Under the pieces are notes generated by a model. It saw only the letters and a list, made by a program, of their open reading frames with translations, was not told where the DNA came from and searched no databases. Of a stretch of 64,000 nt of DNA, positions 16,500 to 57,527 are shown in pieces. Source of the DNA: Zygnema cylindricum (Eukaryota; Streptophyta; Zygnematophyceae; Zygnematales; Zygnemataceae); NCBI GenBank assembly GCA_037447655.1, contig JBBHKE010001165.1:62001-126000 (forward strand). Reading direction: 5' to 3'. The position numbers were made by a program, and so were the translations under genes. Within the stretch, counting starts at the first letter, position 1; each line of letters starts with the position of its first letter.

Positions 16500-18250
16500 T
16501 CCGTTCGTACAACATGGTGTTTTTGTTTACCTCACTTGGTGCATCCACAACACTCCCTCTCAACGACCAATCGATTGGAGCAAGTAACGACCCTTTCAAT
16601 TTCCGTAATCAAAAAACCATATGTCATCAAATAGGTCAATTGTTGCCCCAATAAAATCAAGTTGCGTTTGCACAAGTCTATGTATTTGACACATCAATGG
16701 AGACGCAAGTAAATAGGCGAATGAGTATTATGGATGGATTAGACCACGATGTAGTGACAATGATTCATAATATGATGAAAACACACAACCCTTTGGCGCA
16801 ACAGTTTATTGCAGCCGGAGAACGAATCCATGAAGCCCCTAAATTATGCTTAATACTAAAAGATACTGTTCACAATTTAGACCAACGCCATTACAATCGA
16901 CTACAAGCAGAAGAAGTTGCAGCAATTTTGGTTAACCCAACAGAAAATACCTAAGGAAGAGATATAGTTTTGAATATAAAATGAGGCAATCAAATGTTGC
17001 GCATATTCGAGTCACACGCATTGTATGACCCACTCCAATACCCACTTTTATTTCCATATGGTGAACTCAATTGGCATTTTGGTTTGGAAATGACAAATGG
17101 AAGACGTGTGTCCTCAAGAGCATATGTTGCCTATCGTTTATTTACGCGTGCAGGAGAAAACAATTTAATACACAAAGTTGGTCGCCTATTCCAACTGTAT
17201 TGTGTGGACCAGTATGCGAAAGTGGAGCAACAACGACTCAAGTTCCAACGTGAGAATCAACGTATTTTGCGCGCAGAGTTCTATGGGGGATTATTGGATT
17301 TGATACCACGCGACCAATGTGTCGTAACCGATGAGGCGAGGCAACAAAGTCACGCAAACATTTCGGCAACAAATAATGTCGTGGTAAACCAACGCAATGA
17401 AGAGCTTTAAAAAAAAAGGCGACACATCATCTTAGCGTAGAGCTTCACAGGTGGTGATAAGTATATGCAAGAACAATACAAAAACGCCATGGCAATTGTC
17501 CGCGCACTCGGCAAGCCAGATTTATTTATAAAGATCACATGTAATCCTAACTGGAAAGAAATCAAACAATCATTGAAACCAGGAGAGATTGCCTCCAACC
17601 GACCTGACATAACTGTGCGCGTGTTTTCACTGAAGCTGAAAGCTATACTTCAAGACATTTCAGACGGTGTATTAGGAGTACAGGTGGGAAGAATTCACGT
17701 GATTGAGTTTCAAAAACGCGGTTTGCCTCATGCACATTTGCTCCAAATGTTAGCTGATGAGGACAAACCTCAAACACCCACAGAATATGACGTGTTCGCT
17801 TCTGCAGAGATACCAGATCCCATGAACAAAAAATTGTACAAAACAGTGACAACATGTATGATGCATGGTCCATGTGACATGCACTGTTTGCGTGAGGGCA
17901 AATGCAAGAAAGGATTTCAAAAAGCATTCTGTGAAGAGACTCAAGAGGATGGTAATGGATATCTTATGTACAAGAGACGAAATAATGGTCGTTTTATTAC
18001 AAAAAATAAAAAAAACACTTGATAATCAATTTGTCGTTCCATATAATCCTTGGTTTTCGCACAAATACAACTGTCATATTAATGTCGAAGTGTGCTCAAC
18101 AATAGCATCGGTCAAATATTTCTACAAGTATGTGTACAAAGGGCATGATCCCGCCGCAGTGTTATTAGGAAACAACGAGCCAAGGGACGAAATTCAATAA
18201 TACTTAGATGCCCGATACGTATCCGCATCGGAATCATGTTGGAGATTGTT
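16500..18250 (+). pseudogene. Helitron Rep (HUH endonuclease) region, broken
   Basis: Fragments follow the usual Helitron order: NRRMSIMDGLDHDVV (16715), LYDPLQYPLLFPYGELNW with GRLFQLYCVDQYAK (17020-17220), then KITCNPNWKEI, the two-His motif GLPHAHLL (about 17725) and SVKYFYKYVYKGHD (about 18110), which carries the conserved Tyr and Lys of the nuclease. Stops or shifts lie near 16953, 17410, 18022 and 18200. The motifs themselves are preserved, so the decay is probably moderate in age. Confidence 0.85.
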
Positions 18251-27440: not shown

Positions 27441-27677
27441 GTTATTGGTTAACGAACGGTGTTGGGTCTCGATATATTGCTCCCAGACCACAAATTCACA
27501 AATTCTTTATCAGCAATAAGTAGAAAAAAAATTGCTATATAACAATACTTTATAACTGTATATAGTGTGGCATGCTATGTATGACAATCTGTCCCGTACT
27601 CTGTATAACGGAGTCTAGTATGAAAAGTTATCCGTAAGAGAAAAAGTGTACATTTCCGATAATATCGGTATCGGTGT

Positions 27678-28644
27678 TGTAACAGCAATAGCGGATCGAA
27701 CTTGTTTATAAAGGGGTATTTAGGTAATATGATTATAGAGTACTAAATTTGGTAGACGTCCGCGAAAGAATCACGCTATTTGGAGTTATATTTTAAAAGT
27801 TATAGTGATGGGTGTATTTAGGTGATAGCGTGGGGTCTTAATATCAAGTGGGTATCATTGAAACGGGTTAAGGGTCAAATTAGTACCGAAATTCCGCGTG
27901 TACGTTTCATAAAGTTCTAACGAAACGTTTGGTATGCACGGTGGTTTGTTTCGTACAAATTTTAGTACGAAACGTCACTTTTACTTAGGGAATTTCGTTG
28001 GAAGTTTCGCGTGCGAAATTTGTTACGCACGATCGTGCGAAGTCGCGTTTCGTTTGGCGCGCACTTTTGCGCGTAAGTGTTACGTAGTGAAACGTAACGT
28101 TTGATTGGTTAGTAAAGTGCTAAGTAGTTAGTAAGAGATTTCGCACGTTTTTGCATTGGTCAGTCTGAGTCTTTGCTGATCAATGATTGGCCCAGGTAAA
28201 AGCCTGTTAAAACGGAGCGTTGACTTTGGCCTGGCGAGTCCAAGGCGATGATGGATAAATAGTGAAGTGTAAGAGGAGAGTAGATATCTTTTCCTTTGGA
28301 AAAGTTTGTGGAAATTCCGGCTGATCTTGGTCCTGAGCGATTAATACCAAATTGGAGAAAAAGCATTTTTGCATTGAAATCTCTTACTAACTAAATAGTG
28401 TTTTAGTAGTTAAGAGATAAAATTATTAAGAGTGGAGAGTAGAAGAAACACTTTAATTTGAAGGGTTGAGCCACGAGGGCAAGAGACCAAGCTAATGTCA
28501 TGTGGACATAAGCTTCTTCTAATTTAAAGTTTATCCTTATGTGATTGTTTTCCAATGTGGATATGTATTTTCCAATGTGTGGAATGTGTGGTTGAAATTG
28601 ATTGAAGTAATGGGATTTTCAGAGAGGTAGGAAATCCTGTTACA
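27678..28644 (+). repeat. Gypsy 5' LTR
   Basis: 967 bp, TGTAACAG to CTGTTACA. It contains several repeats of CGTTTCGTACG-like words (27920-28100), probably promoter-region sequence. The copy at 34432-35399 is 1 bp longer. Confidence 0.93.
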
Positions 28645-28646
28645 TA

Positions 28647-28658
28647 TGGAATCGGAGC
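28647..28658 (+). other. Gypsy primer-binding site
   Basis: TGGAATCGGAGC lies 2 bp after the LTR. It differs from the initiator-Met tRNA site TGGTATCAGAGC at two positions. Confidence 0.8.
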
Positions 28659-29368
28659 TTGGTTAAAAGCCAAAGAGAAGCTTGCTCACCCGAAAATCGA
28701 CTGTCGTGACCGGTGAGGGTGCTCTAACCCGGGTTGGTGGAACCACAATGTGAGTGGTAGGGGATTGGAGGGAAACTAAGTGACCACACTGCCAGCGGCC
28801 GCTTGTTAGATGTGGGGCGTGCTTAGGTCCTCAGGACTAAGGCGGGGTGGGCAGTGTAGCCACCGCTAAAGCTCACTCCAATTACCTAGAGGCCTAACAA
28901 ACTTGCCTTCTCTTAGCAATGATTCATGTGTAGAGGGAGGGCCTGAAGCCATGAAGGGTGAGGATGTGAGGATTAGAGAGTAAAAGATCCTGATGTAGTG
29001 GGAAGTGGAAATTTGCTAATGGAGAAAAAAAAAAGTGGAGTACTTTACTTCTTCAAGAGCAAAGGAGTCCAGAAATGACTCAAAACTTTTCAAACCCTAA
29101 ATTGTTACTTTTGATTGATTTCAATTTTGCTGTTGCAAAATTTATGGGGAAATTCTTACCTTCTGTTTCAATGTTGGGAAATTGAAAATTTGAATTTGTA
29201 CTAACTTACTGTCAATGTCTTTTTAATTTCTTAGAACTTGATCTTTTTAAAGGATTTGTTAAGGAGAAGAAGTCTTGGATTGGAGCAATCTGAGGACTTC
29301 TAATCTGCATCAAATTTCATTGGGAAATTATACTCTATCTTTCTTTTGCTTGATTTCATTGTGTGATA
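28659..29368 (+). other. Gypsy untranslated leader
   Basis: About 700 bp between the primer site and gag with no long open frame. It is part of the retrotransposon and holds no separate gene. Confidence 0.7.
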
Positions 29369-30622
29369 ATGGCAAATTCTGCATGGAAACGTGAAATGGA
29401 GAATGCGTTGAATGTGTTGAAGAAGCGAACAGTGAAATTGGTCAAAAGATTTAATAATCATGCTGCCGCTGTGGATGAAACCATTTCCGAATTGAAAAGT
29501 GAATTGAAAGTTGTTAAAGAAAATGGAAATGTTTCAAATGAGAAATTAGATGAACTTATTAACTTAATTCAGACCAAGAATGATATGAATGACCAAAAGG
29601 GTAAGAGTAGTAAAAGGAATGCCAGTTTTAGGGAGGATGATCATGATAGACCTAAGAAGATAAGGGATCTGAAATTGTCTATTAGCGAGGCACCATCGTT
29701 TGATGGTAAGAGGATCGATGAGTTGGATGCTTGGATTTTTCATATGGAGTATTATTTGGAGTATAGAAATAGCGATCGTGATGATTACACTTCTTTTGCA
29801 GTTAGCTGTCTGAAAGGCGATGCTCAAATTTGGTATTATACACAGAAAAGGTCTAAATTGATTCCTGATAATGATGATTGGGAAACTTTTAAAACCGCGA
29901 TCAAATCGCGTTTCTTGTCTGTCACTTTTAAATCTAGAATGGAAGAAAAGTGGTTGAATTGTAAGCAGACTGGATCTGTGAAGGGTTATATTGTGAAATT
30001 TGACTCATCTAGCATTCATGTCATAGGTTTGACTGATGAAATGGCTAAATTGCATTTCTTGAACTATTTGAATCCTGTACTGAAATCAGAACTAAAACAT
30101 CAAAATTTTAATAATTTGAAGGAATTACAAGATAAGTCATTGGAATTAGAGGATCAATTGGGGTATAATCGGGAAACTCGATCTCTCAAGGGTAATTTAA
30201 ATGAAGTATCACAGTGGGATGAGGAGGAATTTGTTGAAGAGGGTCTGAATGCTGGTCTGGTGAATAGGCAAAATATCTTCAGGGGAAATCAAAGGGGTGG
30301 ACATAGTGTTAATGCAGGAAATAAATTTAACAATATAGGAGGGTACATTAAAAGTCCTAAACCAAGCATTAATGCCCACAAGCCTAACCTTACCATCCCC
30401 ACATGCACTATTTGTCAGAGAAAGGGTCATAGAGCATTTGAGTGTGCACAACTGAAAAAGATTAACTGTTATAACTGTGGAGAGGAGAGACATTTTAGTA
30501 GGGATTGCATAAAACCCAAAAAGAAAGTCACTTGTTTCAAATGCGGAGGTCCAGATCATTACGCTAAAGACTGTACAGGTAAAGGTTCTCTCAAATTAGT
30601 CGATGTAAATGAAGGTCTCTAA
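29369..30622 (+). CDS. Gypsy Gag with three CCHC zinc knuckles
   Basis: An open frame of 417 residues from ATG 29369 to TAA. An N-terminal helical, charged region is followed by a retrotransposon gag domain (WIFHMEYYL, FLNYLNP) and, near the C-terminus, three knuckles: CTICQRKGHRAFEC, CYNCGEERHFSRDC and CFKCGGPDHYAKDC. Gag forms the virus-like particle and binds RNA. Two knuckles are missing in many plant gypsy Gags, so three is worth noting. Pol begins 160 bp downstream in another frame. The frame itself is intact, unlike pol. Confidence 0.88.
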   Translation: MANSAWKREMENALNVLKKRTVKLVKRFNNHAAAVDETISELKSELKVVKENGNVSNEKLDELINLIQTKNDMNDQKGKSSKRNASFREDDHDRPKKIRDLKLSISEAPSFDGKRIDELDAWIFHMEYYLEYRNSDRDDYTSFAVSCLKGDAQIWYYTQKRSKLIPDNDDWETFKTAIKSRFLSVTFKSRMEEKWLNCKQTGSVKGYIVKFDSSSIHVIGLTDEMAKLHFLNYLNPVLKSELKHQNFNNLKELQDKSLELEDQLGYNRETRSLKGNLNEVSQWDEEEFVEEGLNAGLVNRQNIFRGNQRGGHSVNAGNKFNNIGGYIKSPKPSINAHKPNLTIPTCTICQRKGHRAFECAQLKKINCYNCGEERHFSRDCIKPKKKVTCFKCGGPDHYAKDCTGKGSLKLVDVNEGL

Positions 30623-30782
30623 GAGGATATTGCATTATACCTAGCTGAGCAGGAAGCCCAGGAGGTGGGAAACGGAAAAGACTAACTGAAAGTCCTCAAT
30701 TGAGTCAACCGGATCCAAAAGTTAAAGAATTAACTTAGGAGGGCAAATTAATGAATGGAAAAGTTGGATAGTTGAATTTATT

Positions 30783-33700
30783 ATGATTCTCACTACACTG
30801 CATGGTTTAAAGAATCCTTCTGATGAAATTCTCAACAACAGACCTATGTTAGGACAGTTTAGTAATGATGACACCAAACACAGTTTGATTAGATTTGAGT
30901 CATTAGTGGAAGGAAAACCGTTGAGAGTAATGGTTGATTCAGGTGCCACACATAATTTTATTTCATATAAGTTTGTAGAGGAAAATAAAATTCATACTGT
31001 CATAAGGGAAAAGCCTTTACATGTTCAAGTGGCAAATGGTAATAAGTCCACATTAGACTTACAAACTGACACGATAGAAGTTGATATCCAGGGTCATAAA
31101 ATGAAAGTTGTGTGTAAAATAATGAATTTGGGAAGTGAAGAACTAATTCTGGGAAAGCCTTGGTTAACAGAACATAATCCTAAAATTGATTGGGAAATTA
31201 ACACCTTAAAAGTGAAGTCTGAAAACGGTTGGAAGGTTTTGCAAGCATTATCTCATAAGAAATTGCATAAGAATCATATAAATAACATAACCAGATTGGG
31301 AGTAGAAGGTTTGATATCTGCTAAACAATTTAAAAAACACTTAAAAGATAAAACGAATCATATTTTCTTGTTATTAGTAACTGAGGCGGTTACTGATGAA
31401 GGGGGGGGAGAAAACACTAACATGGATGTCATCCCTAAATCTGACACCACTAAAACTTTCGAAAAACTAAAATCTGATTTTGTAACTGACATTAATACAT
31501 CTGATGTTGTTGTTAAGGATTTGATTTTTGAATTTCAAGATGTTTTCCCAAGTGATTTACCCTTGGGAATGCCACCTTCCCGAGATGTAGAACATGTTAT
31601 TAACCTTGAACCTGGATGTAATCCTCCTGTCACAGGAATTTATAAACACAGTTTCTTTGAGCAGGAGGAGTTAAAGAAACAGATCAAAGAACTCTTAGAG
31701 AAAGGACATATTCAGCCCAGCAAATCACCGTACGGAGCACCCGTTCTCTTCGTCAAAAAGAAAGACGGAACGTTGAGAATGTGTGTCAATTATCGTAGTC
31801 AGAATAAGATTACAGTGAAGGATAAGTATCCGTTACCTTTAATTTCTGATTTGATAGATCGTTTAAAAGGTGCTGAAGTATTTTCGTTGATTGACCTGTG
31901 TAGTGGCTTTAATCAGGTGCCGATTAGAATTGAAGATGTTGATAAAACTGCTTTCAAGACTAGGGTGGGTCATTTCGAATAGATAGTGATGCCATTCGGC
32001 TTAACGAATGCACCGCCTACTTACCAAAGATTAATGAACCAAACCTTTTCAGATTACATAGATGAGTTTGTCCAAGTGTTTATAGATGATATTTTAGTTT
32101 ACAGTGAATCTAAAGAACAACATATAATTCATTTAAAAAAAGTTTTGGAAAGGCTAAGAAAAAGAAAATTTTATGGAAAATTGTCAAAATCTAGCTTTCT
32201 TAAAAGTGAACAATTATTTTTGGGACACATAGTTAGTGGGGAAGGTGTTAAAACAGATCCATCCAAAATTTTAGTAATCCAAAATTAGAAACAACCTACT
32301 AATGTCACAGAAGTTATATCGTTTTTGGGATTGGCCACTTATTACAGGAAATTTATCAGGAATTTCAGTATGATCGCCGCACCTTTGACGGATTTACTTC
32401 CGGAGAAGGAGACGTTTGTGTGGGGAGCTGATCAAGATGGAGCATTCGAGGAATTAAAAGGGAAGTTGACCTCTACCCCTACACTGGTGTATCCTGACCC
32501 TGCCGGAGAATTTGAAGTTCTAATCACTATAGATGCATATGATAAAGGTCTAGGTGTAGTCATAAGTCAAAAAGTCGGCAAACACTTTCATCCTATTGCT
32601 TTTGAGTCCAGAAAATTTAATGATGCTGAAAAAAACTATACAGTACAGGAAAAGGAATTACTTGCAATTTTACATGCATTGGTGAAATGGCGTTGTTATT
32701 TGCATAATAAAGAATTTACTGTTCACTGATATAATAAAGCACTCTCATATTTACAAAGATTAAGTGATGCGCAGATTATGACTGGCAGATAGGTTAGGTG
32801 GATGCAGAAATTGGCATATTTCAAATTTAATGTCAAATATATTCTTGGGAAGACAAATGTAGTCGCAGATCCTTTACGTATATGTTTTGAAATAAGTGTT
32901 ATGGTTCAAGATGAATTGGTTTTAGATACAGTTAGAAATGGTTATGATAAAGATCCTTATTTTGTTGTGATTTACAAGAACATTTCGGGAGGGAATTCTA
33001 ACCCATTGAATGAGAGACATGTCAAAAATTTTAGACTAGAAAATGGTTTACTGTATTTGCAAATTGGGGATAGATTATGCATTCCTGAAGTGGGAGACTT
33101 AAGAAAACAAATTTTACGGGAAGCTCATGAGCATTTAGGACATCTAGGTTGAGATAAAACTCTTAGTCGATTGCAAAGTAGATTATTTTGGCCTGGGATG
33201 GCAAAGGAGGTGTCAAAACACGTGGAAAGTTGTGTCCCTTGCCAACAAAGTAAACCCAGTACCCAAAAACTTAAAGGTCTCTTAAAACCTTTGGATATCC
33301 CTGAAAGACCGTGGGAATCTGTCAGTATGGATTTTATTGTTAGGTTGCCTGCTACATCTAAAAGGAATGACACTATCATGGTCGTAGTCGATAGGTTCAG
33401 TAAAATGGCAATCTTTATCCCTTGCAAAACCACTCATTCAGTTGTAGATATTGCAAAGTTATATTTTGACAACGTGGTCAGACATCATGGAGTTCTCTAT
33501 CTATAGTCACTGATAGAGATTCTAAATTTACGTCTGCTTTTTGGAAAGAATTACAGCAAAATTTAGGCCCTGAATTGAAAATGGGTACCGCTTATCATCC
33601 TTAGACAGATGGACAGACATAAAGGATGAACCGTACACTAGAGGAAATGCTTAGGACTGTTTGCAGTGGAGTTCAGAACACACGGGAATCTAAACTGCCA

Positions 33701-34381
33701 TTAATGGAATTTGCATACAATTTATGTAAACATGCTAGTACAAGATTCTCGCCATTTAAAGTTGCATACGGATACCAACCTAGAGAAGCATTGGACTTAA
33801 TATCAAGGGTCACTCAAGAGAATAGGAGTTCTGGAACAGAGTTTTGGGAATACGTTCAAACAATTTGGAAAACTGTCCGGGATTCATTTGTGGAGGCACA
33901 AAGGAGGCAAAAATTAAATGCTAACCGCAAACGGGGTGATTGGGTGTTACGCACAGGTGACAAGGTTTGGCTTTCTACAACTCATTACAGGTGCAAGATT
34001 GAGGGACAATCGGATCCTACGGGGAAATTTGCCCCTAAGTACATTGTACCATTTACTGTAATCGAGATGATATCGTCAGTTGCTGCCAAATTTGACTTCC
34101 CGCCTTCTACAAAAATTCATTCTGTGATACACATCAGCCAACTAAAACCAGCGAATCTTCGACCAACTGAAAGAGAATTGGAATTGGATCCCTCAATAAT
34201 TATAGAACCTGAAGTCCACAGATGGGTAATAGATTGGGTTGGTCAACGGTTCAAGGTTGGTGATGCATTTTCTGGCAAGTGCATTATCTAGGAAGGCCTG
34301 AGGATGAGTTGACTTTAGAGGATAAAAATTCTGAGTTTTTAGAGAGGTATTGGAGGGATAATAATATAGAAGTCCGGTCTT
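30783..34381 (+). pseudogene. Gypsy Pol (protease, RT, RNase H, integrase), broken
   Basis: Protease motif [13 protein letters not shown] is near 30930. Reverse transcriptase covers about 31620-32280 ([38 protein letters not shown], the FIDDILVYS catalytic motif). RNase H starts with ITIDAYDKGLG near 32525 and the integrase with CVPCQQSKP near 33235, followed by VSMDFIVRLP. The tail (FKVGDAF, then RPEDELTLEDKNSEFLERYW in another frame) resembles a chromodomain. Stops: TAG 31981, TAG 32286, TGA 32727, TAG near 32790, TGA near 33151, TAG near 33504, TAG near 33603 and TAA near 33620. Most fit single transitions of Trp or Gln codons. Not functional as written. Confidence 0.9.
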
Positions 34382-34412
34382 GAGAATTAAAGGTGTTTAA
34401 CTGAGGTCAGTT

Positions 34413-34431
34413 AAAAATAAAGAGGAGATGA
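34413..34431 (+). other. Gypsy polypurine tract
   Basis: AAAAATAAAGAGGAGATGA lies directly before the 3' LTR and would prime plus-strand DNA synthesis. Confidence 0.75.
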
Positions 34432-35399
34432 TGTAACAGCAATAGCGGATCGAACTTGTTTATAAAGGGGTATTTAGATATTATGATTATAGAGTACTAA
34501 ATTTGGTAGACGTCCGCGAAAGAATCACGCTATTAGGAGTTATATTTTAAAAGTTATAGCGATGGGTGTATTTAGGTGATAGCGTGGGGTCTTAATATCA
34601 AGTGGGTATCATTGAAACGGGTTAAGGGTCAAATTAGTACCGAAATTCCGCGTGTACGTTTCATAAAGTTTTAACGAAACGTTTAGTATGCACGGTGGTT
34701 CGTTTCGTACGAATTTTAGTACGAAACGTCACTTTTACTTAAGGGAATTTCGTTGGAAGTTTCGCGTGCGAAATTTGTTACACACGATCGTGCGAAGTCG
34801 CGTTTCGTTTGGCGCGCACTTATGCACGTAAATGTTACGTAGTGAAACGTAACGTTTGATTGGTTAGTAAAGTGCCAAGTAGTTAGTAAGAGATTTCGCA
34901 CGTTTTTGCATTGGTCAGTCTGAGTCTTTGTTGATCAATGATTAGCCCAGGTAAAAGCCTGTTAAAACGGAGCGTTGACTCTGGCCTGGCGAGTCCAGGG
35001 CGATGATGGATAAATAGTGAAGTGTAAGAGGAGAGTAGACATCTTTTCCTTTGGAAAAGTTTGTGGAAATTCCGGCTGATCTTGGTCCTGAGCGATTAAT
35101 ACCAAATTGGAGAAAAAGCATTTTTGCATTGAAATCTCTTACTAACTAAATAGTGTTTTAGTAGTTAAGAGATAAAATTATTAAGAGTGGACAGTAGAGG
35201 AAACACTTTAATTCGAAGGGTTGAGCCATGAGGGCAAGAGACCAAGCTAATGTTATGTGGACAGAAGCTTCTTCTAATTTAAAGTTTATCCTTATGTGAG
35301 TGTTTTCCAATGTGGATGTGTATTTTCCAATGTGTGGAATGTGTGGTTGAAATTGATTGAAGTAATGGGATTTTGAGAGAGGTTGGAAATCCTGTTACA
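34432..35399 (+). repeat. Gypsy 3' LTR
   Basis: 968 bp. It differs from the 5' LTR mostly by single C/T or G/A changes (for example TTTGCTGATC versus TTTGTTGATC). Confidence 0.93.
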
Positions 35400-38967: not shown

Positions 38968-41163
<2,196 letters not shown>

Positions 41164-47511: not shown

Positions 47512-48082
47512 TGAAAGGATCAACAAAAATTCTGAGCTCACTTACAAACAATTATAGCAGCAGAAGCATTAAAAATGTAAAACATTAAATCAACATTGAA
47601 GAGACATTTCAAAAATTTATCATATCAATAAAAAACCGAAATTACAAATTCTGCTCTTCTATCTCCTTGTCTCTACTCTTTGTATTCCTTACTTAATTGA
47701 TTAACACACATTTATGGTGTCCCTTAAATACAATACCTGCCATGGAGTGACACGTGTGAGCATGCGCCGCCAAGAAGCCTCTAGAAATCTGCCACCTGTC
47801 CGTAGATTAGACTAGAACACTCTAAATTTCACTAATGACTGAAACATTGCAAAACGACAAGCTAAGACGAAAGTACTAGACAAAACTAGAAGCACTATCG
47901 CACTAAACTAGACGTACGAAAGTTTTAGACGAGAAACGAAACGACAAATGTTTCGCGGAACATTTAGAACTATATCGAAACGTACGTTTGTGTACTTTCG
48001 GTAAATTCTAGAAAGTATAGTTTTTCTTTTGCGAAATCAAACTACTTCTGTGTGCGTACGATTCTTTCAATGAATCGTAACA
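47512..48082 (-). repeat. Copia 3' LTR
   Basis: 571 bp; on the minus strand it starts TGTTACGATTCATTG. GAAGAGGGGGAA (48083-48095), the polypurine tract, lies immediately before it. Confidence 0.93.
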
Positions 48083-48112
48083 TTCCCCCTCTTCGTTGAA
48101 GAATCGTCTACG

Positions 48113-49665
48113 TCACAACAACTCTAGTTTATGTCTTCCTCTTAAAAGCACATCAAACGTCGCCGCCTTAGTAAGCATATCAGCAGCTTCCTCAAGTGTC
48201 GATACATATTGAAATTCCACTTCTTTAGCCGCTACCAAAACTCGTACGAAATGCTATTGGATCCGTAAATGTTTAGTGCGCTTATGAAATACGGGATTTT
48301 TCACAAGTGCCATCGAACTCATACTATCCGTGAAAATTTTTAAACACCCAATCGAAAATCCAAGTTCGCCTAACATTTCTTTTATCCATATAGATGCTTT
48401 GCTTGCGTGGCACGCCGCCATATACTCGGCCTCCGTTGAACTTAGTGCCACGGTTGGTTGCAAACGTGAACTCCACGAAATCGCCGCTCCACCAAACAGG
48501 AATGCGTATCCGGACGTTGATTTTCCCGAATAGAAATCTCCGCCCCAATCGGCGTCGCAATATCCGACGCATTCCAACGATTCACTTTTAGATTTGAATA
48601 CAAGACCGATATCCGTAGTTCACGCCAAGTATCAAAATATACGCTTGACGGCTTCCCAATGCGATTTCTTAGGCGCTTGACAATATCGACTTACAATTGA
48701 AACGGTCGCCAAAATATCGGGCCGCGTACCTACACTTAGGTACATTAAACTTCCAATCGCTTCGCGGTACGGTACATTTACCGTCGCTTCTTCCTCAAAC
48801 TTTCGCAATTGACATTTTGCATCCATAGGCGTCGAAATTGGTTTTGCGTCAAGCATAGAAAACCGAGTTAATACCTCTTTACAATATTGTGCTTGACTTA
48901 ACTTTATATCCCCGTTCTCATTGCGAATCACTCCAATTCCCAAAATATATTTTACTTCACCAAGATCTGTGACTTTGAAATGTTGTCGTAAGTTGCCTTC
49001 AATTCGCGTATACGTTCCAAACAATCCGACGTCATCAAGAAATCATCGACGTAAACCGAAAATATAATTTGATATTTTCCTTGTCCTTTCATGTACACTC
49101 CAGAATCCAAAATTGTACGTCTCAAACCAAAGTCTAAAAGAACTTTGTGTAGGCGTAGATACCAAGTGCGAGGCGCTTGCTTCAACCCGTAAAGCGATTT
49201 GCGAAGACGCCATACCATTCCTTCCCGTGACGTCACGCCTTCAGGTATCTTCATGTAAACCTCTTCTTCTAACTCTCCATTCAAAAACGCGGTCTCCACG
49301 TCCATTTGATCAGCGTGTTTCTTCTTCGCAGCGGCAATCGCCATAATCATCCTTAGAGAGTCGAATTTCACAACGGGAGCATATGTCTCCGTGTATTCAA
49401 CCCCCTCTCTCTGCTGAAATCCTTTGCATACAAGTCTCACCTTATATTTTACTACTTCACCCGATGCACCAATTTTAGTTTTGAAGACCCATTTCGCGTC
49501 AATCGCTTTCTTTCCTTTCGGTAATTTTACTTCCTCAAATGTCCGATTTTCCACAATTGACTTATACTCCTCCAAAGCCGGCTTCTACTTCGTTTCTCAA
49601 TCACACGAGTTTCTCGCCTCCGCGTATGATTGAGGATCGCCGGCTAGATTCTCGCACAGTAATTG
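48113..49665 (-). pseudogene. Copia reverse transcriptase and RNase H, broken
   Basis: RT: AIDAKWVFKTK, QMDVETAFLNGELEEEVYM, SLYGLKQAPRTWY and the catalytic SVYVDDFLM (near 49060), then YILGI and SIVSRYC. RNase H: CVGYCDADWGG with TVALSSTEAEYMAA (near 48425-48570); the C-terminal KAATFDVLLRG ends at a TGA at 48113-48115. Breaks: stops near 48612 and 48255 and a frameshift near 49000. This enzyme copies retroelement RNA into DNA; in this copy it cannot be made whole. Confidence 0.88.
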
Positions 49666-52475
49666 CTATAAAAGGAATTCCGTCTCTTTCGCATCAGAGA
49701 CGAAATAAATGAATTTGAATTCTCTCCACCAATTTCGTCATAAGAAAGCCGATTTGGTTTCTTTTCTCTATTCTCTCGAGTACTCCGTCTAAGAACCAGA
49801 ACTTGTTCCACATTTTGCTCCTCCTCGTCCACATTCGGTAAACTCGATTTTGAGCTCGAAGATTTTTGACTTTTCGTCGACATTTTGGAATTACAGCTCA
49901 CATTACTCCGAACATCAATGTCAATGTCCAATTTCTCCGAACGCGAATCAACATTTGATTTTCCCTTCTTGATGTTATCAATGGATTCAGGCTCCTCATC
50001 CGAATCCGAGTCCTCAATTTCCGGGAAATTAGTAACATCGTCTACCTCATAAAAATCAAGATTCTTCTTCAATTCCGCCGATTTCTCAATAACCGATTTT
50101 AAGTCTTCATGAAAATTAACATTTCGGGATTTTTCCACAATACGACGAACTGGATCGAATACACGATAAATATTTCTTTTCGTACTATAGCCCACGAAAA
50201 TTCCGGGCCAACTTCTCGCCGCAAATTTTCCTTTCCTTTTCACTTGATCCACATAAACCGTAGCATGACATCCCCAAATTCGGAGATGATGGAGGGCCGG
50301 TTTGCGCCCATAAAGTAATTCGAATGGTGTTTTATCACCGGAAATCGAACTAAGTCTCCGATTACAAATGTAATTGGCCGTGAGGTTAGCATCTCCCCAT
50401 AATGAGATACTTTGACCGGCCGAATGCACCATCGCCTCACCATTTCTTGTAATGTCATATTCTTCCTTTCGGCAACTCCATTCAATTCTGGAGAATAAGA
50501 TGAAGTGAATTGTTGGGTAATTCCTTTCTCCTTACAATACCTCTCGAATGCGATAAATTCGCTCCATTATCCGAACGAACGGCTTTCAATTTTCGCTCGC
50601 ATTGTCTTTCGGCAAATGCATGCCACTCAATAAAAGTTTCAATAGCATCCCATTTCCTCTTCAATAATCGGACCCACAAAAATCTCGAATAATCATCAAC
50701 GATGACCATAATATATCGATTTTCTCCAAGACTCTCCGGCTTAATTTGTCCACATAGATCGACGTGGACAAGCTCCAATAGATGTTGAGCCCGAAATTTC
50801 ACATCCTTAGTTGGATGTGGTTTCCGAATTTGTCGTCCTTGGCTACATCCATCGCAACCATTTACTTTTTCACCGGTAGCAAGATCCAATCCTCTCACAC
50901 ATGCCGTTTTTATCATTCTCCTCAAATTTCCTTCGGATGTATGACACATCCGATGGTGCCATAACGTTAAATCTCCCTTTAATTCCGAGATTTGATTTAG
51001 AATGCCCGTGGAAGAAGCATTCTTCCTCGGTCGCTTCCATAAAAGTCGACTATGCATCGAATTGGTGACTTCGCCTTCGCCGATTAATTTGCCGTCGGCG
51101 CGATATATGCGAATTGTCGAATCGCCTGTGGCAACTACGCTCCCACCGGCGTGCTGAATTTGAGGTACGCTTAGCAAGTTAACGGAACCGTCCGGAATAT
51201 ATAGGGCGCTCAAAAAGCGCGCCTCCGATATTGTTTCGTTTCCAAAATGGTCCCACGTGGGCAAATTCAATCGAACAGTACCCGCTTTATCAACCGTAAT
51301 TGTCTGTCCACTTGCGACCGAAATTAATTTTGGTATGGTAAGAGAACGCATGTCGTCAAACAATGTAGCGTCCGTACACACGTGGTGAGACGCTCCCGTG
51401 TCAATTATCCACTCTTTTTCGCGTGCGTCACTTGGTTCACTTAATGAATCAATAGAGAGGTGGAGACAAGTGAACGTTTGTCCTCCTTCGTCTCCTTCAA
51501 AATTTCCCAAGTCAACGAAATTTCCATGGCTTCCACCATGACCGCCATAGCGTCCACGACCACGACCACTATCACGTCCGCGACCGCGACCACCAAAACC
51601 GCGACCGCCTCTTACTCCTCCGCTACTAAATTTAGAGTAGCATTGTTGGCTCGTGTGGCCTACTTTCCCACAATTGAAGCATTCTCTCTCTTTTTTCGGA
51701 CACGAAGACCAAATATGACCGGGCCGGTTGCAACGGAAACACAAGACGTTGCTACTATCATTTTGGGCGGTCCGAGATCTTGGATTTCCACCTTTATCAA
51801 GCCATTTTCCACGACCTCTCGGACCTCCTCCTTTTCCACCCCCTCTTCCACGGAAATAATGCAAATCCGCGAATTCGGGAGCGGTCACATTCAAAGATCC
51901 CGTGCTCAAGGAGCCCTTTGATTTGATTCCCCTCTCAAATTGGGATTCCAATGCCTTCCAACATCCGTGTGCGGTGCTATGCGTGAGAAAATGATCATGC
52001 ACGGATACCAAACACGTTTGCATTAATCCGGTGATGGCCGCAAGATTCTTTCGCTTCCACAAACGACGAGCCTTCGCATCTCCGACCGGCATTTTCTCTT
52101 CTCCATTGACGACTTTCCAAAGACCTCTCAAAATCAATTGAGCTCGAATATATTTCTTCCACGAAGAGTAATTCGATCCATTGAATACGACGGTCTTTCC
52201 GGGCATCTGAAACATTTCCACTCCTTGAATATCCTCCTCTAAATCGGATTCGTCATCAAGCTTAAGTTTCCCCCTCTTATCTTTCGCTTTCTTTGCCTCC
52301 TCATCACTATCATCGGAATCATCTCCACCTGGATATCATCTCCACCCGGATCGGGATCCAGTCTAAAACGGGTGAATCCATCAATTCTCCTATTCACGTC
52401 GGAGAGCTTTGCATCAATCGCATCAATCCGACGCATAAATTTCTCAAATTGCTCTCGAAATTGATCGTTGGCCAT
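49650..52475 (-). pseudogene. Copia Gag, protease and integrase, broken
   Basis: Gag begins at ATG 52475 (MANDQFREQFEKF); a frameshift near 52310 leads to GSNYSSWKKYIRAQLILRG. Two zinc knuckles (CFRCNRPGHIWSSC, CFNCGKVGHTSQQC) are flanked on both sides by Gly/Arg-rich stretches (GRGGGKGGGPRGRG; GRGRGRDSGRGRGRYGG). Protease: EWIIDTGASHHVC (near 51405). Pre-integrase: LWHHRMCHTSEGNLRR; integrase core: LVHVDLCG, MVIVDDYSRF, AVRSDNG. A frameshift lies near 50520, after which MNGVAERKN and LLYGRKPALHHLRIWGC follow. The last part is acidic and ends near 49650. Confidence 0.88.
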
Positions 52476-52707
52476 CGAACCACCGACACCTTGATTTCGA
52501 TCAACCAAATCCGTGGGGAATGACGAGTCAAATGTGACCCTGGAAAATGTGAATTCTTTTTTTTCTTAAGGAGGATCCTCGGGAGTCGGCAAATTTTCCC
52601 AAAAATTAGAAACGGGGGTAGCTGAGGAGGGAGTGAAAGGGGACTTCTTTTTGTTCTTTCCCCCCATGCGCCAACACTAGACAAGGAGATACCACAATGG
52701 AGCTCTA

Positions 52708-52722
52708 CCTGCTCCGATACCA
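52708..52722 (-). other. Copia primer-binding site
   Basis: TGGTATCGGAGCAGG lies 2 bp inside the 5' LTR and matches the initiator-Met tRNA site except for one base. Confidence 0.88.
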
Positions 52723-52724
52723 AA

Positions 52725-53296
52725 TGAAAGGATCGGTAATAAACTCTGAGCTCACTAAAAAACAATTATAGCAGCAGAAGCATTCAAAATGTAAAACATT
52801 AAATCAACATTGAAGAGACATTTCAAAAATTTCTCATATCAATAAAAATCTAAATTTACAAATTTTGCTCCTCTATCTCCTTGTCTCTACTCCTTGTATT
52901 CCTTACTTAATTGATTAACACACATTTATGGTGTTCCTTAAATACAATACCTGCCATGGAGTGACACGTGTGAGCATGCGCCGCCAAAAAGCCTCTAGAA
53001 ATCTGCCACCTGTCCGCAGATTAGACTAGAACACTCTAAATTTCACTAATGACTGAAACATTGCAAAACGACAAGCTAAGACGAAAGTACTAGACAAAAC
53101 TAGAAGTACTATCGTACTACACTAGACGTACGAAAGTTTTAGACGAGAAACGAAACGACAAATGTTTCGCGGAACATTTAGAACTATATCGAATCGTACG
53201 TTTGAGTACTTTCGGTAAATTCTAGAAAGTATAGTTTTTCTTTCGCGAAATCAAACTGATTCTGCGTGCGTAGGATTCTTTCAATGAATCGTAACA
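52725..53296 (-). repeat. Copia 5' LTR
   Basis: 572 bp, direct repeat of 47512-48082. Confidence 0.93.
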
Positions 53297-53301
53297 TATA
53301 T

Positions 53302-55350: not shown

Positions 55351-55355
55351 TAAGT

Positions 55356-55577
55356 TGTTAAGATTCCTAGAATCGGGGGATAGAATGGACGATCCCAATA
55401 GAGGGATTGATGAGCCGGCCAGGATTTAAACCTGGGACCTTTCACTTAAGCTGCGAACGCACTACCACTGTGCCACCAGCTCGAATGTTACGCTGGTGGG
55501 TCCATTTTTATATAGATTTTTAGTGTGGATTTTACCACAATTCCGGATATCGAGCGCACGTTTCACGTACGTCAACA
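55356..55577 (-). repeat. TRIM-2 3' LTR
   Basis: 222 bp. Carries the T-to-C-type changes that damage the T loop of its tRNA-like unit (TTTAAAT for TTCAAAT). Confidence 0.93.
55412..55482 (-). ncRNA. tRNA-like unit in the TRIM-2 3' LTR
   Basis: Same 71-nt unit as in the other LTR. The anticodon stem TTCGC/GTGAA is fully paired here (one G-T), but the B box is GGTTTAAATCC, with the key C changed. Confidence 0.75.
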
Positions 55578-55631
55578 CCCCCCCTCGAGAGGTAGCCGGT
55601 CATAATAGTCCATGTAAACCTAGTCCCCCTT

Positions 55632-55644
55632 GGCTTCGATACCA
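55632..55644 (-). other. TRIM-2 primer-binding site
   Basis: TGGTATCGAAGCC directly abuts the 5' LTR. It resembles the initiator-Met site TGGTATCAGAGCC with two changes. Confidence 0.85.
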
Positions 55645-55866
55645 TGTTAAGATTCCTAGAATCGGGGGATAGAATGGACGATCCCAATAGAGGGACTGAT
55701 GAGCCGGCCAGGATTTGAACCTGGGACCTTTCACTTAAGCTCCGAACGCACTACCACTGTGCCACCAGCTCGAATGTTACGCTAGTGGGTCCATTTTTAT
55801 ATAGGTTTTTAGTGTGGATTTTACCACAATTCCGGATATCGAGCGCACGTTTCACGTACGTCAACA
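55645..55866 (-). repeat. TRIM-2 5' LTR
   Basis: 222 bp. Contains the TATA-like box and the complete tRNA-like unit. Confidence 0.93.
55701..55771 (-). ncRNA. Complete tRNA-like cloverleaf in the TRIM-2 5' LTR
   Basis: The 71 bases divide exactly as a class I tRNA: acceptor GAGCTGG/CCGGCTC (7 pairs, one G-T), D stem GCAC/GTGC around AGTGGTA, anticodon stem TTCGG/GTGAA (closing pair mismatched in this copy) around AGCTTAA, variable AGGTC, T stem CCAGG/CCTGG around TTCAAAT, then a discriminator A at 55700. The A box TGGCACAGTGG and B box GGTTCAAATCC match the Pol III consensus perfectly. Position 33 is G rather than U and there is no TTTT downstream, so it is not a normal tRNA gene. It is more likely an internal Pol III promoter captured by the retroelement. 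I do not recognise the parent tRNA. Confidence 0.82.
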
Positions 55867-55870
55867 TAAG

Positions 55871-57527
55871 TCAGGGGTCCTCGGTAAGAGGCACAAAAAC
55901 GTCTCCCGCAGTGTTAGAGGAAGTGAAATTGAGAAGAGGGTTGCCGAGAGGGAGTACTAATCTTTTGGCGGTAATATTGAAAAGCATGGCGAATGAGGCA
56001 TACCAGGCTGGAAAAGAGAGGAAGAGAGGGAGAGAGAGGGAGGGAGAGGGAGAGAAATGGGGAAGGGAAAACGTTAACATGGAATTAGATGCGAAGAAGG
56101 GTACAGGCTGGCAAGAGGTTGTATGGGAGGGAGGGCGGGAGAGAGGGAAGGAGGGAGGGAGGGAGGGAGGGAGGGAGGGAGGGAAGGAGGGAGGGAGGGA
56201 CAGAGGGAGGGACAGAGGGAGGAAGAGAAAGAGAATATGAACAATCGGATGGCAACAGGTTACTTACAAGAAGCAAAATAAGTCAAAACAAAAAACCCTC
56301 TCCTTCTCCCTCACCTGCGCATGAGGCAATAATGCCTATATATCCTCCGGCTATCATCCAACCGGTACTTGGGAGGAAGTTTCCTATCACCAGAAAAATT
56401 ACGGAGATTTCTATGAATAAAAATGCGACAAATATCGCCGCTGAAACCAATGCGGCGGTTATTGTCATATAAGTGTGAAAAAATAAAAGGCCTACGAGTA
56501 GCCAGCCAAAAGATTTGGTAAGACTGATTGATGGGGGGATCTGCATTTGAGAACCGGAAAGTCAATGAAAACGAGAGAAAAAAAAAAAAAAAAAAAAAAA
56601 AAGGCAATCGTGAGAATCAACAGAAATGTAGAACTTAGTTAGAGTTGAGAGTGAAATTTTGGCCAAGAAGATTTTGGGTTCTCCAATTTTTTTTGGGAAT
56701 TTGGTGCAAAAGGAAAAAATGTGCATTTGCGACAAGAGATGTTTGAAAGGATGGTGAGATTTCATTTACCGGAAATCTGGTTTTTTTGTCTTTTTTGTAA
56801 TGTTTGGATAAAATGTTATGATATAAAAAAATTTAATATCTATGATGTTGACAGTACTGGACTGTAAATTTAAGTTGTAAAATGTCATATTACTACATTT
56901 AATACAGATGTCTAACATTAAATCAGTAATTTCAATTATCTGGTACTTAAAACTTACAATTTCGTATTTTAGTTGTCTGATACTTCTAAAAACACATTGA
57001 CACTCCAATGCTGAATTTTGAAAGACCCAATATCAAAATCGGAAGTATAATATTCCAGAGTTAAATCCACAGTTTTCCAAATTCTTTTTGAGTTCACTAA
57101 TGCACAAAATTGCAAACTAAAAACCCAATTTTGCGCATGTGCATTTTAACAAATCCCAAAAAGCATACCAGTCCCAAAAGTGCGAGCACAATGAAAAATC
57201 CGACGCTCAACCAGAATCCTCCGTAAGTCGAAAACGCCGTGGCTCCAAAGACATTATTTCTCATAAATTCCCACATTCCCGCCAATAGCAAGACAAGACC
57301 TCCACAGAAAATGGCAGGGCCCACCCACACCAATTCCGGTGCCCAGCCTGCCACAAACAATGTGCCACGTGTCAGCTCTATATTGACAGATTTCTGTCAA
57401 CATCATTTTGTGTGATGTCTTTCCAGCTTGGGGCTGTTCACACGTTATGCCACATGGTATCACATGCCACGTGGCAGCATATTCCGCGTGGCATGTTTCG
57501 AATGCACAGCACTTGCGATATGTCACC

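Follow-up and report, generated by a model that had tools for sequence, protein, structure and literature searches.

A miniature LTR retrotransposon and its neighbours in the window

In the window, by which we mean the whole 64-kb stretch of DNA analysed here, a complete miniature LTR retrotransposon (TRIM) of 511 bp was located on the minus strand (55356-55866). Its two LTRs were recovered as direct repeats of 222 nt that are 98% identical, and at 511 bp the element, with its 67-bp interior, leaves no room for a retrotransposon protein (Table 1). Since the primer-binding site (PBS), the polypurine tract (PPT), the TATA motif and the tRNA-like unit share a minus-strand reading, the true 5' LTR is the repeat at 55645-55866. 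The TAAGT duplications, the two 222-bp LTRs with 5 differences, the primer site and the polypurine tract were all found as the initial annotation had described them. The tRNA cloverleaf that it placed in each LTR was likewise recovered in both copies by ARAGORN and by Rfam (RF00005 at the gathering threshold, a cut-off of 29 bits), with one unit per LTR and no other match of either program in the 64-kb window, although ARAGORN gives a length of 72 nt and not the 71 nt first proposed.

Table 1 Features of the TRIM, in window coordinates
Feature	Position	Strand	Evidence
Target-site duplication TAAGT, left	55351..55355	.	
3' LTR, 222 bp, TG...CA	55356..55577	-	direct-repeat search
tRNA-like unit, 3' LTR; ARAGORN label Lys-CTT	55411..55482	-	Rfam RF00005, 53.7 bits
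Box B GGTTTAAATCC, 3' LTR unit	55422..55432	-	sequence
Box A TGGCACAGTGG, 3' LTR unit	55465..55475	-	sequence
TATA TATATAAAAATGG, 3' LTR; start 32 nt upstream of tRNA-like unit	55502..55514	-	sequence
Polypurine tract GAGGGGGGG, adjoining 3' LTR	55578..55586	-	sequence
Internal region, 67 bp	55578..55644	-	
Primer-binding site; first 12 nt TGGTATCGAAGC, initiator-Met type	55629..55644	-	
5' LTR, 222 bp	55645..55866	-	direct-repeat search
tRNA-like unit, 5' LTR; ARAGORN label Lys-CTT	55700..55771	-	Rfam RF00005, 52.9 bits
Box B GGTTCAAATCC, 5' LTR unit	55711..55721	-	sequence
Box A TGGCACAGTGG, 5' LTR unit	55754..55764	-	sequence
TATA TATATAAAAATGG, 5' LTR; start 32 nt upstream of tRNA-like unit	55791..55803	-	sequence
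Target-site duplication TAAGT, right	55867..55871	.	

The window also contains two larger LTR elements. A Copia element on the minus strand (47512-53297) has a pol split over several ORFs, LTRs that are 95% alike and an initiator-Met type PBS, TGGTATCGGAGC; searching with its gag-integrase region returned mixed matches, from oomycetes, land plants and Closterium, and its reverse transcriptase had no match among solved structures. The second, a Gypsy element (27675-35399), carries LTRs of about 970 bp that are 97% alike. A Helitron-like N-terminal domain lies at 17465-18022. At 39685-41163 we found an intron-containing host gene that belongs to the GPR1/FUN34/YaaH acetate-transporter family; a long CT repeat lies in one of its introns. 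The closest named relatives of the gene are Closterium proteins (NIES-53, 53% over 96%; Yama58-4, 71% over 34%), and other matches, up to 91%, rank above these. An inverted copy of 39685-39902 (81%) is present at 57158-57375. A search for the RuBisCO large chain gave no match; absence of plastid DNA from the assembly would account for this.

Family copies and the tRNA-like unit of the LTRs

Searching the whole genome with the element returned at least 49 matches (40 of 893 first-look candidates scored). We examined 40 loci, comprising 39 fetched regions and the window copy, with L034 being a duplicate of L033 within this set. Exact 5-bp duplications were present at 26 of the 40 loci, and the remaining 14 showed one (three loci), two (two), three (two), four (three) or five (four) mismatches; at L046 the script scored an inverted solo LTR, which has an exact duplication, and skipped the adjoining two-LTR element. 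Dropping 5 fragments and both LTRs of the two-LTR element at L046 reduced the 89 LTRs found to 82, and removal of L034 (3 LTRs and 2 interiors) left 79 LTRs and 43 interiors for the comparisons below. Divergence between first and second LTRs across 35 loci ranged from 0.0% to 15.8%, with two pairs at 0.0%, indicating that the family has been active both recently and over a longer time. Tandem LTR-interior-LTR arrays occur at several loci, with four LTRs in L015; in the arrays of L015, L021 and L033, which have common LTRs, PBS sequences differ between interiors of one array. A 200-kb sample from one contig contained neither a TRIM LTR nor an ARAGORN tRNA. Judged from these copies, the window element belongs to a real, recently active TRIM family of the Helenus kind.

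The initial annotation had reasoned that its reading would fail if most LTRs of the family lacked the tRNA-like unit, as with a SINE inserted into one lineage. Among the fetched copies, ARAGORN reported a tRNA in 66 of 82 LTRs (Lys-CTT in 39, Pyl-CTA in 23, Asn in 2 and Ala in 2) and none in 16, so the unit is not a SINE confined to one lineage. Stem pairs are standard in 86-100% of the 79 LTRs, 20 of the 21 pairs reaching at least 87% and the last one 86%. Box A is present in its strict form in 53 of 79 LTRs and in a relaxed form in 63, the latter commonly reading TGGCA, in which the fifth base is A in place of Y. An intact box B (GGTTCRANNCC) was counted in 43 of 79 LTRs and the shorter GGTTC in 56, and relaxed box A occurs together with box B in just 32.

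We further compared the unit with the rest of the LTR and with host tRNAs. Conservation per column was 0.944 in the unit and 0.92-0.96 elsewhere in the LTR, and within the unit stems varied like loops (5.7% versus 5.3%); special conservation of the unit was accordingly rejected, and these values give no support for purifying selection on its fold. Depletion of Pol III terminators was also considered and set aside as evidence: TTTT is absent from 28 of 40 elements, which is not beyond chance, the dinucleotide-shuffled probability of finding no TTTT in the LTR plus interior of the window copy being 0.73. Identity of the unit to the fetched host tRNA-Lys-CTT was 60%. No parent tRNA was found among the 31 host tRNAs compared (30 of at least 63 listed matches, with 63 of 24620 candidates scored, plus one initiator gene), and the best identity, 71%, falls inside the range between isotypes of host tRNAs (median 62%, 95th percentile 74%).

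The LTRs fall into two types, with 59 in type A, 18 in type B and 2 of 79 outside both. These types differ at five sites that all lie inside the tRNA-like unit, within 25 nt of each other; four are nearly fixed and the fifth is the anticodon, CTT or CTA, fixed in type B and mixed in type A (T 46, A 13). Two of the sites make up a compensatory change from C-G to T-A in the D stem, and a further site converts a G-T pair of the anticodon stem to A-T. Outside the unit, LTR positions 57 and 87 differ between the types by frequency alone. Five random sites of 222 were clustered this tightly in 0.05% of draws, a figure that overstates the case because two of these sites served to define the groups. 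On a tree built without the tRNA columns, the A/B label required 10 changes against a shuffled mean of 16.2 and thus followed descent in part, while a single clade for the label was weakly rejected (AU p 0.026). Type A and type B LTRs are mixed within L021, L026 and L045. From these sequences, exchange of the tRNA module between element copies appears possible.

What the unit does was weighed against three other readings. We find it barely credible that the element has been spreading a functional gene for tRNA-Lys or for a suppressor tRNA, for all that ARAGORN assigned Lys-CTT and Pyl-CTA labels: U33 is near-universal in tRNAs, but position 33 of the unit is G in 72 of 79 LTRs, and this together with the 60% identity to host tRNA-Lys-CTT led us to reject a working tRNA. 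By its sequence the unit is probably a promoter, and we infer that its RNA would play no part in translation. G33 can also be read as the mark of an ordinary TRIM that took up an old SINE or tRNA pseudogene whose promoter role is now absent. This reading gains from conservation no better than in the remaining LTR and from a best host identity of 71%, under the between-isotype 95th percentile, with no parent among the 31 host tRNAs. We nonetheless consider it quite unlikely, because most fetched LTRs retain the unit with little variation in its spacing from the TATA motif, because it is also present in young copies whose LTRs show 0% divergence, and because one D-stem difference between the LTR types is compensatory.

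The third reading, put forward in the initial annotation, was an undescribed TRIM class having both a Pol II and a Pol III promoter. It would account for TATATAAAA in 69 of 79 LTRs alongside tRNA boxes in many of them. However, of the 51 LTRs for which the script placed both the TATA motif and the unit, 49 have the start of the motif 32 nt ahead of the unit, and upstream TATA motifs have been reported for 22-32% of angiosperm tRNA genes (PMC11700998). As the 32-nt spacing also fits the upstream element of plant tRNA genes, transcribed by Pol III, the TATA motif need not be a Pol II promoter and no Pol II element is needed, so the dual arrangement was not borne out. Nor is the class new, since the same design has been published as Helenus (PMC10886601), and we regard a new dual-promoter class as very improbable. 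Use of Pol III by the TRIM would be in keeping with the boxes and the TATA spacing.

Primer-binding sites and host initiator tRNAs

An exact 12-nt initiator-Met PBS opens 34 of the 43 interiors, and the match extends to 16 nt in 24. At PBS bases 8 and 9, the 43 interiors carry AA (17), GG (11), AG (6), GA (2) or other forms (7). The host initiator tRNA is presumably of plant type, going by its match to land-plant sequence. Together with the Closterium matches of the acetate-transporter gene, this makes a streptophyte alga the likely host. Searching with the initiator-Met core, a census by one pattern that may be incomplete, gave 13 genome matches, of which 8 are full-length genes and 5 end after CATAACC. 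These five (L053, L054, L056, L079 and L080) are initiator-Met 5' parts beyond which the sequence differs, and they look like captures of half-tRNA primers.

At the positions pairing with PBS bases 8 and 9, the 8 full-length genes fall into three acceptor types: AG (L048 and L049), GG (L050 and L057) and AA (L052, L055, L051 and L078). The 3' ends of L055, L051 and L078 are altered, and five of the eight genes each predict exactly a PBS 12-mer present in the TRIMs (two AG, two GG and one AA). One TRIM copy, L041_1, carries the PBS form predicted from the altered L051, perhaps by chance. The two variable bases are linked in the PBS as they are in the initiator genes (Fisher p 0.0014 over 36 PBSs of four forms). 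The PBS forms are not represented in proportion to the genes: AA, the commonest, is backed by a single intact gene among those found, L052. The window copy itself has GA, which has no counterpart among the 8 full-length host genes; heteroduplex repair, mutation or a gene missed by the census may account for this type. Other LTR elements show a picture of the same kind: GG is found in the window Copia and, with one changed base, in the window Gypsy, and GA in a Copia of L060. A Gypsy copy in L063, apparently of the same family as the window Gypsy, has a different initiator-Met PBS type, AA.

To follow PBS inheritance we used a tree of 33 rows built from LTRs plus interior, from which the PBS and a C/T site at interior position 23 were excluded. 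On this tree, PBS type needed 14 changes among 31 elements, where shuffled labels gave 13.4 on average, and so was distributed at random. By contrast, the C/T site, located 14-15 nt from the variable PBS positions, required 5 changes against 9.6 in shuffles (30 elements; 1 of 300 shuffles equally low). A pattern like that of the C/T site was seen at an interior A/T site and at the anticodon, though both were included in building the tree. The shuffle test is weakened by 15 of the 30 inner branches of the tree being open.

Because the three common PBS forms equal the three host acceptor-stem types and are randomised with respect to the element tree, these results suggest that each copying event rewrites the PBS from the host initiator tRNA that served as its primer. 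Mutation or template-switch recombination could instead have generated the PBS diversity: A/G transitions make up the main differences, resolution of the tree is partial, the GA form matches no gene found, PBS counts diverge from gene counts, and recombination also seems to have affected the A and B tRNA modules. Against such an origin stand the agreement of the three common forms with host gene types, the linkage of the two PBS sites and the neighbouring C/T site, which tracks the tree when the PBS does not. We hold mutation or recombination to be unlikely, though a serious contender. The wider proposal, retrovirus-like PBS rewriting in which the type records the primer used, combined with a tRNA promoter module exchanged as a unit, we put forward at slightly better than even confidence.

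Proposed cycle and comparison with known systems

Taken together, we consider it highly probable that the element is a Helenus-type LTR retrotransposon that is non-autonomous and contains one tRNA-derived unit per LTR; its cycle would run as follows. The A and B boxes of the tRNA-like unit, together with the TATA motif 32 nt upstream, would bring in Pol III, whose transcript would run from the 5' LTR through the element. Reverse transcriptase and integrase would be provided by an autonomous LTR retrotransposon, host initiator-Met tRNA would prime at the PBS, the G-rich tract would prime the second strand, and integration would create the 5-bp duplications, with the PBS being rewritten from the primer tRNA at each copying. 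Mobilisation of Helenus has been ascribed to a Copia or Gypsy partner (PMC10886601), and we infer a partner of this autonomous kind; none was found in the window, where the Copia element has an initiator-Met PBS too, but both it and the Gypsy element differ from the TRIM at the LTR ends and in the interior.

The name Helenus (TRIMp3) was given by Kojima in 2024 to TRIMs whose LTRs contain tRNA-like sequences, from fungi, animals and one plant, in a screen limited to TRIMs under 1000 bp without mobility proteins (PMC10886601). The element studied here shares with them the tRNA-like sequence in both LTRs, the PBS and PPT, and the size. Further likenesses are 5-bp target duplications as in the fungal and plant members (exact here at the 26 of 40 loci given above), tandem arrays, reported there for one family, and the CTA anticodon, found there in rust Helenus (PMC10886601). 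The conserved Helenus boxes are box A (TRGCY, YGG) and box B (GGTTC) (PMC10886601). Selaginella moellendorffii is the only plant host in the Helenus table, with an LTR of 120 bp and an interior of 85 bp, as against 222 and 67 bp here (PMC10886601). Of the two halves of the question whether the element had already been described, the class was thus answered by Helenus, while no account of this particular family was found in the literature searched, Repbase lying outside that search; among the papers listed, no second one on Helenus-type elements was apparent by title. By its sequence features the TRIM represents a new family of Helenus that is unremarkable as a class, and what goes beyond the known class is the apparent link between PBS types and host initiator-tRNA types; PBS polymorphism of this kind does not figure in the sections of the Helenus account consulted (PMC10886601). 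If this assignment is true, Helenus extends from one listed plant to an apparent alga near the origin of land plants.

The analogy with Cassandra that the initial annotation drew was apt, in that a small-RNA gene sequence lies within both LTRs of a TRIM in each case, with a Pol III promoter that is putative here; Cassandra carries 5S rRNA, unlike the tRNA-like unit here (PMC10886601). In the window LTRs, Rfam at the gathering threshold gave tRNA only and no 5S rRNA. Cassandra is treated as the sole validated Pol III case, and Pol III transcription of Helenus comes without experimental validation in the founding paper (PMC10886601).

Whether the PBS inherits the sequence of its primer tRNA is a basic question in the biochemistry of retrotransposons, and a genome with three naturally distinct primer types allows it to be tested without mutants. 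In yeast Ty1 and Ty3, which are likewise LTR retrotransposons primed by initiator-Met tRNA, the PBS is not derived from the primer tRNA (PMC5371799), and the pattern here suggests the opposite. It resembles retroviruses, in which the PBS is copied from the primer tRNA, and mouse ETn/MusD, whose PBS types, scattered over the element tree, were interpreted likewise (PMC7472051). For mouse endogenous retroviruses the authors speculate on 50:50 PBS inheritance (PMC7472051); here, in an LTR element of probable plant lineage, three host tRNA types would be the source.
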